From a virus, in IMG/VR virus record IMGVR_UViG_3300009436_001082, positions 1 to 25,686 of that record: DNA of 25,686 nucleotides; one strand, given 5' to 3'. The notes beneath the pieces are model-generated. The model did no database searches and was not told where the DNA came from. It was given only the letters and a program-made list of their open reading frames with translations. The stretch's first letter is position 1. Each line of letters opens with the position of its first letter. Shown piece after piece: positions 22,861 to 25,686 of the stretch. Made by a program: the position numbers and the translations under genes.

Positions 22861-23604
22861 TTAATCTCCAATAAAATCTTTTAGATTTTCAATAATAGTT
22901 ACACCAGATTCTCTGGCTTTAGTTGTTTTTGCTGACTCTACTCCGCTCTCATTTATGAGAATTGTTACCTCTTTGGTCAGGGAGCCTACGACTCTGTATC
23001 CTGCATCTGATAGTACTTTAGTTGCGTCAGCTTTAGTTTTGAAACTCTTCAACCTACCACTAATACATACTACACCTTTATCTGCTACTAACACATTCCT
23101 ATTAAATCTAAGGGAATGAGGCAGAAATACAGGGTAGTCGCACATATATAGAGCATCCAACAAAGACTCAGTAGCCTTGGGGCCGAGACCTGCTTTCTGA
23201 CAACTTTCTTGCGTTATATCTAAAATGTCTTCACACACTGCAGAAAGTTTCTCAGAAGCTGTCTTGCCGATCAAAGGAATACTAAGTGCTGGCAACACTA
23301 TATTGAGTGGGGCGTCGATAGAGTTTTCTATTTCGTTATACAATTTCTCGGCTAGTTTCTCAGAGCTAAGAGCACACTGTATATCTACAAGGGTTAACTC
23401 GTAGATATCGAAGATGCTGTTAAGGTTGAGTTTTTCAATAGCTGCGGGTCCAAGACCTTTGATCTTCAAGGTCTTTGCGAAGTGTTCTACTTTCTTTCTT
23501 GACTGGCTATCGCAAGACATATTGCGGCAGTAAAGAAGGTGGTTAATCCACTCAAGGTCAGAATTGCAACTTGGGCAACTCGTGGGGGCTTGAATTGAAA
23601 ACAC
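22861..23604 (-). CDS. NAD-dependent DNA ligase, C-terminal half (zinc finger, HhH, BRCT)
   Basis: This gene encodes 247 residues from a GTG with a GAGGAG site 8 bases upstream, in a transcript from promoter P3. The layout matches the C-terminal part of LigA: a four-Cys zinc finger (Cys10, Cys13, Cys26, Cys31), helix-hairpin-helix repeats (IKGLGPAAIEKL; IPLIGKTASEKL; AGLGPKATESLL) and a BRCT domain from about residue 172 (VVCISGRLKSFKTKADATKVL). These parts bind and encircle nicked DNA. The catalytic half is the separate gene upstream at 23685, 80 bases away. A comparable two-gene ligase is known in T5-like phages. It is not a frameshift artefact: each half has its own promoter, start and ribosome binding site. 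Confidence 0.9.
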   Translation of the reverse strand: MFSIQAPTSCPSCNSDLEWINHLLYCRNMSCDSQSRKKVEHFAKTLKIKGLGPAAIEKLNLNSIFDIYELTLVDIQCALSSEKLAEKLYNEIENSIDAPLNIVLPALSIPLIGKTASEKLSAVCEDILDITQESCQKAGLGPKATESLLDALYMCDYPVFLPHSLRFNRNVLVADKGVVCISGRLKSFKTKADATKVLSDAGYRVVGSLTKEVTILINESGVESAKTTKARESGVTIIENLKDFIGD

Positions 23605-23684: not shown

Positions 23685-24605
23685 CTAAATATTTACGCGT
23701 CGGACAACCCTAGGTATAATTTCTCCACTACGAATAACTTCTACGTCACATCCGATCTCTAACTCTAGTTCACGAATATACTCAATGTTATGTAGCGTAG
23801 CCCTAGCGACTTCCGCGTCTCCTATAATGACAGGCTGTAGAATTGCTACAGGGCTTACGACCCCGCTCTTGCCTACTTGCCATTTGACATCTAGTAGTTT
23901 TGTTACTACTCCATCCTTCTGCTCTTTGAGAGCAAAGGCACCTCTAGGGTGGTGAGCAGTAGTACCTTTAGCATAGTAGTCAACAACATTATCTATTCGG
24001 AAAACTTCTCCATCAGTAGGATATTTGTCATCTTCTACATCTATAACAGTAGTAAAGCCGTGGTGATTAAGATACTCCATAGTCTTATGCCAGTAGGTAA
24101 AAAGATTAGGAGTCATATCATACGCCACAAAAGTCACATCCCTACTAAGAAACTCATCCTGATCTTTGAGGTTGAGTGCACCACTTGCGTAGTTTCTAGA
24201 GTTAGGGATAGACTTAGGAGAAACTACCTCCCCTGTAATCTGAACAGTTTCATCAATGTCGATTCTCTCTGGGACAAGATGTTGCAATTTATCAGTGATA
24301 TCTCTACCAATCTTGCCATCACCACGGGTTAGACCCATGACGAGTTTGCCAGATACATATAGAATGGATACTGCTGCACCGTCCAACTTCGGGGAGGAAG
24401 TATAGATACCCAGATCAGGGGCATCATCAAGGGAAAAGAATTTTTGCAACGAGTACATCTGATACATATGTGGAGTGCCATCAGTAATAGTATGGCCTAC
24501 ATTATCATATCCAAAGATACCAGCTAGCTTATCAAACTCTTCGTCTGATAGTATAGGTGTACCTTCGTAGTATTGATGTGCTGCGTGTGTCAAAAATTCT
24601 TTCAT
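23685..24605 (-). CDS. NAD-dependent DNA ligase, N-terminal half (adenylation and OB domains)
   Basis: This gene encodes 306 residues from an ATG with a GAGGG site 5 bases upstream. The N-terminus (HQYYEGTPILSDEEFDKL) matches the NMN-binding Ia domain. The adenylation domain has KLDG with Lys73 as the nucleotidyl-lysine, Arg94 (TRGDG), Glu126 (TGEVVS), and Lys227 (ALKEQ), probably the counterpart of E. coli Lys314. The usual DGVVIK motif reads DGEVFR, so Arg203 replaces the family lysine (Lys290 in E. coli); I believe this also occurs in some phage split ligases. The OB fold follows (VGKSGVVSPVAILQPV ... SGEIIPRV) and the protein ends there. It needs the partner half at 22861 for zinc, HhH and BRCT functions. 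Promoter P4 lies directly upstream. Confidence 0.92.
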   Translation of the reverse strand: MKEFLTHAAHQYYEGTPILSDEEFDKLAGIFGYDNVGHTITDGTPHMYQMYSLQKFFSLDDAPDLGIYTSSPKLDGAAVSILYVSGKLVMGLTRGDGKIGRDITDKLQHLVPERIDIDETVQITGEVVSPKSIPNSRNYASGALNLKDQDEFLSRDVTFVAYDMTPNLFTYWHKTMEYLNHHGFTTVIDVEDDKYPTDGEVFRIDNVVDYYAKGTTAHHPRGAFALKEQKDGVVTKLLDVKWQVGKSGVVSPVAILQPVIIGDAEVARATLHNIEYIRELELEIGCDVEVIRSGEIIPRVVRRVNI

Positions 24606-24629: not shown

Positions 24630-24667
24630 ATTATACTAGAGAGAGGACTGAAAGTCAAGGATTATTT
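24630..24667 (-). promoter_or_regulatory. Sigma70-type promoter P4
   Basis: On the - strand: AAATAATCC, -35 TTGACT (24658-24653), 17-bp spacer, -10 TATAAT (24635-24630), predicted start near 24623. The upstream element overlaps the stop codon of the PC4-like gene. It drives the N-terminal ligase half. Confidence 0.85.
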
Positions 24668-24961
24668 ATACATTTCGTCTATATAATCTTTGAAGAACTC
24701 CTCTAGGATGTCCTTACTTTCAGCTAAAGATAGTATCTCTATCAGCCCTGCGAACAGTTCTCTTGAGTTACTTAAATCTAAAGGCATTGCTACACCCTCT
24801 CTACCTGCTCTCCATTCTTCCTCAAAGTCTAGAAAATACTTGCGTACATGTAGATATTCTACACCACGAAACTCGTTAACTACAAGACGTACTTGTGTTT
24901 CCTTTGCTTCATCGTAGTGAATAACCTTTTCATACTTATAGGGGGCTTCATGAAGTTCCAT
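24662..24961 (-). CDS. PC4-like single-stranded DNA-binding protein
   Basis: This gene encodes 99 residues from an ATG with a GGAG site 7 bases upstream. The segment VRLVVNEFRGVEYLHVRKYF, then an EEEW..GREGVAMPLDL stretch and a C-terminal amphipathic helix (ELFAGLIEILSLAES) follow the pattern of the PC4/YdbC fold: a curved sheet with an R-Y motif plus a GR.G loop that binds ssDNA, then a dimerising helix. Such proteins act as ssDNA binders in replication or transcription. If correct, the phage carries two unrelated ssDNA-binding proteins (see 12523-13155). The assignment is by pattern only. The upstream gene ends 2 bases before the ATG, so both are cotranscribed. Confidence 0.6.
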   Translation of the reverse strand: MELHEAPYKYEKVIHYDEAKETQVRLVVNEFRGVEYLHVRKYFLDFEEEWRAGREGVAMPLDLSNSRELFAGLIEILSLAESKDILEEFFKDYIDEMYK

Positions 24962-24963
24962 AA

Positions 24964-25230
24964 CTATACTCCATTTCGCAGTATAGTTGAGAGAGGCACT
25001 ACGCTAGTGACACTCTCAGGCTTTAGCAATCTGTACGAATCTGTATCCCAACAAAAAAGCAAAAGAGTCCTGTCGGATTCTTTTGCCCTATTAGTTTTTG
25101 TCTGGATATACGGGGTACTAAAGTCAAGCGTACAAACATTATACTTTAGTTTTCTTGAGTTTTCACTTCTGTAGGTAATAATTGCATCACCAAATTCCGT
25201 TACTAACTTTGCTAAGTCCTCTTTCTTCAC
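24964..25230 (-). CDS. Small conserved phage protein of unknown function
   Basis: This gene encodes 88 residues from a GTG with a strong AAGGAG site 4 bases upstream. The N-terminal half has alternating polar and hydrophobic residues (LAKLVTEFGDAIITYRSENSRKLKYNVCTLDF). The C-terminal half contains LLLFCWDTDSYRLLKPESVTSVVPL, which looks like two or three beta strands and seems well conserved in phages as I recall it. There is no catalytic motif. It precedes the PC4-like gene with 2 bases between them. Function unknown. Confidence 0.65.
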   Translation of the reverse strand: MKKEDLAKLVTEFGDAIITYRSENSRKLKYNVCTLDFSTPYIQTKTNRAKESDRTLLLFCWDTDSYRLLKPESVTSVVPLSTILRNGV

Positions 25231-25293: not shown

Positions 25294-25357
25294 GGTGAGC
25301 CCTGCGGGAGTTGAACCCGCATTCACTGTTTAGTTGTATTGATTATACGAAGGGCTC
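25294..25357 (-). ncRNA. tRNA-like element with tmRNA-like T-arm, lacking a normal anticodon arm
   Basis: On the - strand a perfect 7-bp acceptor-type stem (GAGCCCT at 25357-25351 with AGGGCTC at 25303-25297) encloses 30 bases and a perfect T-arm (GCGGG-TTCAACT-CCCGC, 25320-25304). The 3' end is ACC without the final A. The enclosed 30 bases are about 12 short of a normal tRNA and show only a GTAT/ATAC mini-hairpin; no 5-bp stem with a 7-base loop and U33 can be drawn. The T-arm sequence matches, as I recall it, that of bacterial tmRNA (ssrA). It may be a degenerate tRNA, a tmRNA-derived remnant or a tRNA mimic. Confidence 0.45.
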
Positions 25358-25367
25358 CTGGAAAGAG

Positions 25368-25686
25368 CTAGTCTTCCTCAGAAGTTCCATTAGATAGAAT
25401 AGATACAAAGTACATAGCTGCTTTGCCAGTCAACTTAGAAATAACATCTTCGTCAACTTCTTTACCTGCATCTACAATAGCTGCGGTAAGAGCTTCTTGA
25501 GCCGCTGCTTTAGATACACGAGTGCTAGGTGCTTTTGTAGAACTGGAACTACTTCCAGATGCGGGGGTCTTTTTGATGTAAACACCAGCTTTGCTAAGTA
25601 CCATACGAACTCCGTTTGGAGACTCGTCATATTCCTCAGCGATGTCTTTTACAACTTCCATTGATGTTTCGGGGGTAGGGTTTGCG
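25368..25686 (-). CDS. HTH-type protein, paralogous to the HTH-repeat protein (5' end outside window)
   Basis: The frame is open to the window edge (106 residues visible). The ATG at 25661 has no ribosome binding site, and the sequence before it (ANPTPETS) reads as protein, so the true start lies outside. Visible residues ~8-38 (SMEVVKDIAEEYDESPNGVRMVLSKAGVY; 29 residues, key positions Ile, Ala, Gly-Val, Leu) align with the fourth repeat of the 22133-22858 protein (SMTVEAIAESIGKTARGV). A Ser/Thr/Lys linker follows, then a helical C-terminal part (LTGKAAMYFVSIL). It is probably a DNA-binding protein of the same family. The tRNA-like element begins 10 bases after its stop. Confidence 0.65.
   Translation of the reverse strand, partial: ANPTPETSMEVVKDIAEEYDESPNGVRMVLSKAGVYIKKTPASGSSSSSTKAPSTRVSKAAAQEALTAAIVDAGKEVDEDVISKLTGKAAMYFVSILSNGTSEED

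Follow-up and report, generated by a model that had tools for sequence, protein, structure and literature searches.

The stretch of DNA analysed here (the window, 25,686 bases, a marine viral record of IMG/VR from a virus of bacteria) harbours on its minus strand a miniature cloverleaf of 62 nt at 25357-25296, or 25357-25294 with the trailing CC, as predicted by RNA folding. The sequence is tRNA-like and not a tmRNA remnant. It lies in a 137-nt gap on the minus strand, after the stop codon of one gene (P0001) and before the next gene (P0002). Our preferred reading, which we hold tentatively, is that this tRNA-derived element may act within the transcript as a structural or RNase P processing signal.

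Fold and parts of the element

The genes around the gap and the parts of the element are the following, all on the minus strand:

25368..25686, minus strand: P0001, the upstream gene, coding for a DNA-binding protein of phrog_1725; its 97-aa open reading frame starts at 25661 and its stop codon lies 13 nt before the element
25351..25357, minus strand: acceptor stem, 5′ strand GAGCCCT; 7 of 7 pairs Watson-Crick with 25297-25303 (pair probability 0.54-0.97; covariance model alignments)
25349..25350, minus strand: linker TC, tRNA positions 8-9; two bases from acceptor to D-arm, tRNA-like
25336..25348, minus strand: reduced D-arm GTAT-AATCA-ATAC, 4 bp with a 5-nt loop without GG (pair probability 0.87-0.92; D-loop 3 shorter than in the tRNA model)
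25335..25335, minus strand: linker A, tRNA position 26; one base from D-arm to stub
25325..25334, minus strand: vestigial anticodon arm ACT-AAAC-AGT, 3 bp with a 4-nt loop, 10 nt against the usual 17 (pair probability 0.60-0.68; 7-nt deletion against the tRNA model)
25321..25324, minus strand: variable region GAAT, unpaired in the minimum free energy and centroid structures
25304..25320, minus strand: T-arm GCGGG-TTCAACT-CCCGC (pair probability 1.0), identical in 17 of 17 bases to the E. coli ssrA T-arm
25297..25303, minus strand: acceptor stem, 3′ strand AGGGCTC, partner of 25351-25357
25294..25296, minus strand: discriminator A73 and CC; the next base is T, so that no CCA is encoded (sequence; covariance model alignment)
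24964..25230, minus strand: downstream gene P0002, phrog_3696, function unknown
24662..24961, minus strand: P0003, third gene of the probable operon, phrog_4053 / Pfam PC4 transcriptional coactivator
24630..24658, minus strand: promoter-like site, 11 of 12 in the consensus scan, between P0003 and the ligase gene

Read from its 5′ end, the element is GAGCCCT-TC-GTATAATCAATAC-A-ACTAAACAGT-GAAT-GCGGGTTCAACTCCCGC-AGGGCTC-A-CC. All 19 pairs are Watson-Crick and the minimum free energy is -22.4 kcal/mol, with a z-score of -3.7 against shuffles, none of which (0 of 200) folded equally well. Acceptor stem and T-arm form a stack of 12 bp, which is followed on its 3′ side by A73-C74-C75 (RCC). A sequence-only reading of this DNA had described a perfect acceptor stem and a perfect T-arm, and both were seen: the stem has 7 bp, and the 5-bp T-stem stands flush against it and closes the loop TTCAACT. 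The 30 nt that were counted between acceptor and T-arm are right in length, but they are not empty, as they hold the 4-bp/5-nt D-arm and the 3-bp/4-nt stub joined by tRNA-like linkers. The extent to 25370 did not hold, since the element spans 25357-25294 instead. The alternative 5′ strand TAGCTCT is unused in the predicted fold, overlaps the stop codon of P0001 and could compete through a weak hairpin at best; a full-length tRNA starting there was rejected, as the fold uses 25357-25351. At the same stop codon, a hairpin GCTCTT-TCC-AGGAGC can be drawn (25356-25369, minus strand; -4.7 kcal/mol alone), and by folding this hairpin could compete with the acceptor 5′ strand as a possible weak switch.

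The combination of a Watson-Crick 7-bp acceptor stem, a 5-bp T-arm and a TTCRA loop occurs once in the window and in none of 300 dinucleotide shuffles; when G-U pairs are allowed, the acceptor and T-arm pattern is found 0.06 times per shuffle. A chance origin was ruled out by the shuffles together with the two covariance models described below.

Likeness to tRNA and to tmRNA

The Rfam tRNA model RF00005 matched the element over the whole model with 39.5 bits, at a cut-off of 29 (170 bases searched, relaxed filters). An independent covariance model was built from 10 ordinary tRNAs in contigs of related phages, with the window excluded, and gave 38.2 bits at 25357-25293 (E 1.7e-8 by a rough calibration, filters off); the runner-up site in the window reached 8.7 bits. 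With this model ordinary tRNAs score 43.5-80 bits and one long-arm Leu tRNA 31.4. It was also run over 172 loci (158 distinct-gap representatives, 10 tRNA-bearing loci and 4 more), and among their gaps only that of a single contig, L002, matched, again with 38.2 bits. The earlier suggestion of a shrunken tRNA mimic is therefore borne out, as the two tRNA models align end to end. ARAGORN on the window, an Rfam scan of the whole window at gathering settings with fast filters and a first genome scan all missed the element. These negatives are uninformative here, because all of them miss an element that is found by a covariance model with relaxed filters. Mini-tRNAs in viral genomes can escape ARAGORN and default Rfam settings.

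No register of the element gives a 5-bp anticodon stem with a 7-nt loop, leaving the 3-bp/4-nt stub only; G18-G19 are absent from the D-loop, which reads AATCA, and the 3′ end encodes CCT. With no 5-bp anticodon stem, no D-loop GG and no encoded CCA, the element cannot decode in the manner of an ordinary tRNA. The sequence-only reading had named the recovery of an ordinary tRNA by a covariance model as evidence against itself; a tRNA model was indeed recovered, but the tRNA has no usable anticodon arm. That the element takes part in translation, as a tRNA whose anticodon arm is extreme, is highly improbable: a 7-nt loop CTAAACA, with a U before the possible anticodon in this register, can be drawn with a 2-3 bp stem only, while ARAGORN gave nothing in 7 of 8 settings and a misplaced 93-nt call at the 50% threshold. 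All 19 pairs are Watson-Crick despite the reduced D-loop and anticodon arm, which suggests that the stems were retained after the loss of decoding.

Crude scoring of the 5′ half against particular tRNAs gave Thr (5.0) and Glu (4.0) as best and did not settle the donor. BLAST of a 66-nt stretch returned 24 phage records with weak and partial matches (E of at least 0.5 among the matches listed), several of which fall under annotated tRNAs; the same stretch had no match at E 10 in E. coli genomes, a search that is uninformative for a 17-nt match. A two-part pattern of the element matched only L002 in viral contigs, and the T-arm core was found only in the window and L002 among 50 related contigs.

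The sequence-only reading had equated the 17-base T-arm GCGGGTTCAACTCCCGC with that of bacterial ssrA, and the identity held (17 of 17 against E. coli K-12 ssrA on NC_000913). The identity alone is weak evidence, because T-arms of such make-up are common. A hallmark of the tmRNA acceptor stem is G3.U70, and bases 3-70 of the element are G-C. The element has a 4-bp D-stem and lacks the stemless GG-TTCGAC D-loop that is seen in the tmRNAs of L020 and L243. As these hallmarks fail (no G3.U70, no D-loop GG), we regard it as tRNA-like rather than as a tmRNA remnant. ARAGORN and the Rfam tmRNA models did not recognise the element as tmRNA, and no tmRNA family scored above tRNA. The relatives have permuted tmRNAs whose T-arm differs, and that of L243 reaches only 15.4 bits with the model built from relatives' tRNAs, against 38.2 for the element.

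These data bear on two further explanations. That the element is an ssrA 3′-end remnant or an attachment site, a possibility named earlier for which the 17-nt T-arm identity would speak, is barely conceivable, since it has its own 5′ acceptor strand and D-arm, a complete 5′ half. Neither its 24-nt 3′ half nor the two-part pattern had a match in a species-representative genome collection, and in a non-systematic look no integrase was seen in two sets of 10 and 8 window proteins. We consider it very unlikely that the element is a tmRNA reduced to its tRNA-like domain that titrates SmpB or EF-Tu, as is discussed for mycobacteriophage DS6A. The ssrA-identical T-arm, the lack of a usable anticodon arm and this precedent (in the parts of PMC4131195 and PMC11915505 used here) would agree with it, but the G-C pair at 3-70, the D-stem, the missing GG-TTCGAC loop and the better score of the tRNA model over every tmRNA model, together with the low score of the L243 tmRNA, do not.

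Relatives of the element and of its gap

We examined 397 loci, a collection seeded with P0001, P0002 and the P0002 of three relatives, of which 386 were usable and 11 were not; they gave 158 distinct gap sequences, several loci coming from one contig, and the contigs are of metagenomic origin. Only the window and L002 carry the element among the loci examined. For the same structure in related phages, which the sequence-only reading had wanted compared, this means one other contig and none of the remaining loci. L002 is a separate contig that is 98.96% identical over 4,309 bases; of the 45 mismatches 41 are silent, 3 change an amino acid, 1 is intergenic outside the gap and 0 fall in the element. 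Constraint or compensatory change in the element is invisible in this pair, because two near-identical copies hold too few differences.

By its DNA polymerase and other genes, the phage falls close to the T5-like viruses (Demerecviridae). The nearest contigs without the element are L013 (87%) and L006, L011, L023, L024 and L029 (~83%), and all of these have TGGCCC-TTCG-GGGCCA-CC at its place, between the same flanks CTTTCC..ACCTT. A MAFFT alignment of the window gap with these sister hairpins was rejected, as it misplaced the hairpin; the correspondence of the stems (GAGCCC/GGGCTC and TGGCCC/GGGCCA) was drawn by eye and is not counted as covariation. In a tree of the 4.5-kb flank with 16 rows, the window and L002 are the sister of the UUCG-hairpin clade with full support, and the outgroups L087-L090 and L075/L106 also have UUCG hairpins. 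Judged by parsimony over few lineages, a single gain of the tRNA shape that replaced a hairpin is the simplest history; in the opposite direction, an ancestral tRNA would have had to leave a UUCG hairpin behind several times.

The main rival, close behind an in-transcript role, is a decaying phage tRNA: after capture in the gap it would have shed the anticodon arm and the guanines of the D-loop, keeping no role other than that of a stable hairpin. We regard this as a real if lesser possibility. T5-like phages and the relatives of the window carry ordinary tRNAs, the 5′ end GAGCCCTTCGTATAAT resembles tRNAs of the 8-11 'TCGT' type (cf. the L244 tRNA-Glu) and the element is confined to one narrow lineage. 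Against decay, the 19 pairs contain no mismatch or G-U despite two separate reductions, and the element fits seamlessly where relatives keep a hairpin.

A simple rule, which undercounts near-terminators, sorts the 158 distinct gaps into 53 whose hairpin has TTTT within 9 nt, 79 whose hairpin lacks it and 26 in which no stable hairpin forms. Together with the sister hairpin of L024, which was flagged as terminator-like in the terminator scan, this would favour an element that is chiefly an intrinsic terminator, attenuator or 3′-end protector with an incidental tRNA shape. We think this improbable, as the stem in the window is followed by no T-run (tail ACCTTCTACC) and was not flagged as a terminator, and a terminator has no need of a T-loop, linkers or A73.

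Other gaps hold other structures. For instance, a complete permuted (two-piece) tmRNA lies in the gap at L020:3415-3716 and L028:3570-3871, with the ARAGORN tag ANDDVYSLAA and Rfam scores of ~94 bits (RF04321) and ~97 (RF01850); marine phages with two-piece tmRNAs have been described before (PMC9004378). Judged by eye, the gaps of L081, L160 and L161 contain an apparent tmRNA remnant, in which the tag-stop stem and the 3′ pseudoknot are kept and the tRNA-like part is gone; no tRNA-domain match was found in these gaps. A second permuted tmRNA with the tag ANDDVYQLAA was seen at another place in the genome of a relative, near a tRNA-Trp (L243:1997-2318, minus strand, on the contig of L088). Two clades have a structured element of ~72 nt in common (L134:2370-2440 and L309 / L411 5556-5583, minus strand), whose loop GGTAACA is complementary to a 3′ TGTTACC (pseudoknot); it had no Rfam match, and its 28-nt core occurs in only 2 viral contigs. 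The gaps of L155, L348, L375, L021 and L022 show by eye a probable H-type pseudoknot CCAGGAGGNATGCGCTGCCTGGG...ACGGCGCA, and for the unusual gaps of L142 and L134 Rfam gave no convincing match. The slot is a place of structured-RNA exchange among T5-like marine phages, and comparing the forms it takes could reveal how phage operons exchange termination, processing and RNA genes.

Position in the transcript and proposed role

In scans for consensus matches, a sigma-70-like promoter (12 of 12) was found before P0001 in all five related loci (L002, L024, L208, L028 and L088), with a spacer of 17, or 18 in L208, and the next one (10-12 of 12) after P0003 in the same loci. The window starts inside P0001, whose frame in L002 extends further upstream past the window end, and so it shows only the promoter-like site after P0003. 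On the coding strand of the gap no promoter-like site was found in any of the five related loci scanned, nor in the window, and no intrinsic terminator was called in the gap of the window. With promoter-like sites on either side of the three genes and the gap free of them, the element is probably part of one three-gene transcript, in the order P0001, element, P0002 and P0003.

Some further features were seen nearby. Inside the start of P0002 (25059-25086, minus strand), and also at 5143-5174 in L088, a stem GCAAAAGAATCC-GACA-GGACTCTTTTGC is followed by TTTTTTG and resembles an internal terminator. Directly before P0002, the leader has a further GCAAAA..TTTTGC hairpin. The NAD-dependent DNA ligase is split in two genes (23685-24605 and 22861-23604, minus strand), as in T5-like phages.

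The core recognised by bacterial RNase P is an acceptor stem stacked on the T-arm, with A-C-C behind it. On the preferred reading of a signal within the transcript, the tRNA body would have replaced, or entered, an attenuator-like UUCG hairpin on the branch of the window, and this hairpin may have set the ratio of the upstream to the downstream gene product. The acceptor/T stack with A73-C74-C75 would then be read by host RNase P as a minimal pre-tRNA and cut on its 5′ side at 25357, perhaps with a 3′ tRNase acting on it as well, and cleavage would separate the transcript of P0001 from that of P0002 and P0003. Alternatively, the element would at least form a stable 3′-end or intercistronic structure. 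A processing signal would fit the predicted position inside the operon. Two features speak against processing: the D-loop lacks the two guanines of the elbow (G19-C56) that RNase P and RNase Z read, and base -1 is G, where U is usual.

RNase P cuts tRNA-like and phage RNAs (in the part of PMC11143913 used here), and in humans RNase P and Z release mascRNA and menRNA, small tRNA mimics that lack a usable anticodon loop, from long transcripts (as the portion of PMC11693755 used describes). A bolder and rather unlikely reading is that the element is a bacterial-virus counterpart of MALAT1 mascRNA, in which a tRNA body grafted into the loop of an attenuator hairpin became RNase P-cut punctuation, at a place where relatives swap permuted tmRNAs, pseudoknots and terminators that tune the same two regulators. 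If it is processed, the element would be a compact natural test of the minimal tRNA for host RNase P, as it lacks both the anticodon arm and the guanines of the D-loop, and would show a phage putting a tRNA to use as gene punctuation in place of decoding. The open-access literature searched listed no phage operon with an anticodon-less mini-tRNA.

Several known systems can be set beside it. Like tRNA (RF00005), the element has an acceptor stem, linkers, D-arm, variable region, T-arm and A73 that align end to end; unlike it, it measures 62 nt, with an anticodon arm of 3 bp/4 nt, no D-loop GG and no encoded CCA. The tRNA-like-domain-only tmRNA of DS6A, which is also phage-borne, and the ~65-bp plastid tmRNAs without a coding sequence are similar in size, with a tmRNA-like T-arm and no anticodon arm, in the parts of PMC4131195 and PMC11915505 used here. 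In contrast to these, with DS6A compared by description only, the element has a D-stem and lacks G3.U70 and the tmRNA D-loop. The RNase P-cut phage RNAs (C4 antisense RNA of P1/P7, M3 RNA) are likewise phage transcripts with a tRNA-like cut signal; the likeness is by their description in part of PMC11143913, and processing of the element is predicted. Truncated mitochondrial tRNAs of mites and nematodes, as far as the account used here covers them, share the shortened cloverleaf, but those lose the D- or T-arm, whereas the element loses the anticodon arm. The human mascRNA and menRNA (MALAT1, MEN-beta) are, in the same portion of PMC11693755, small tRNA mimics inside a longer transcript, as is the element; in both, the D stem-loop is reduced and a usable anticodon loop is missing. 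The human RNAs differ in keeping the D-loop guanines, in having a longer anticodon-equivalent stem and in being eukaryotic, and the processing that is predicted for the phage element is proven for them.
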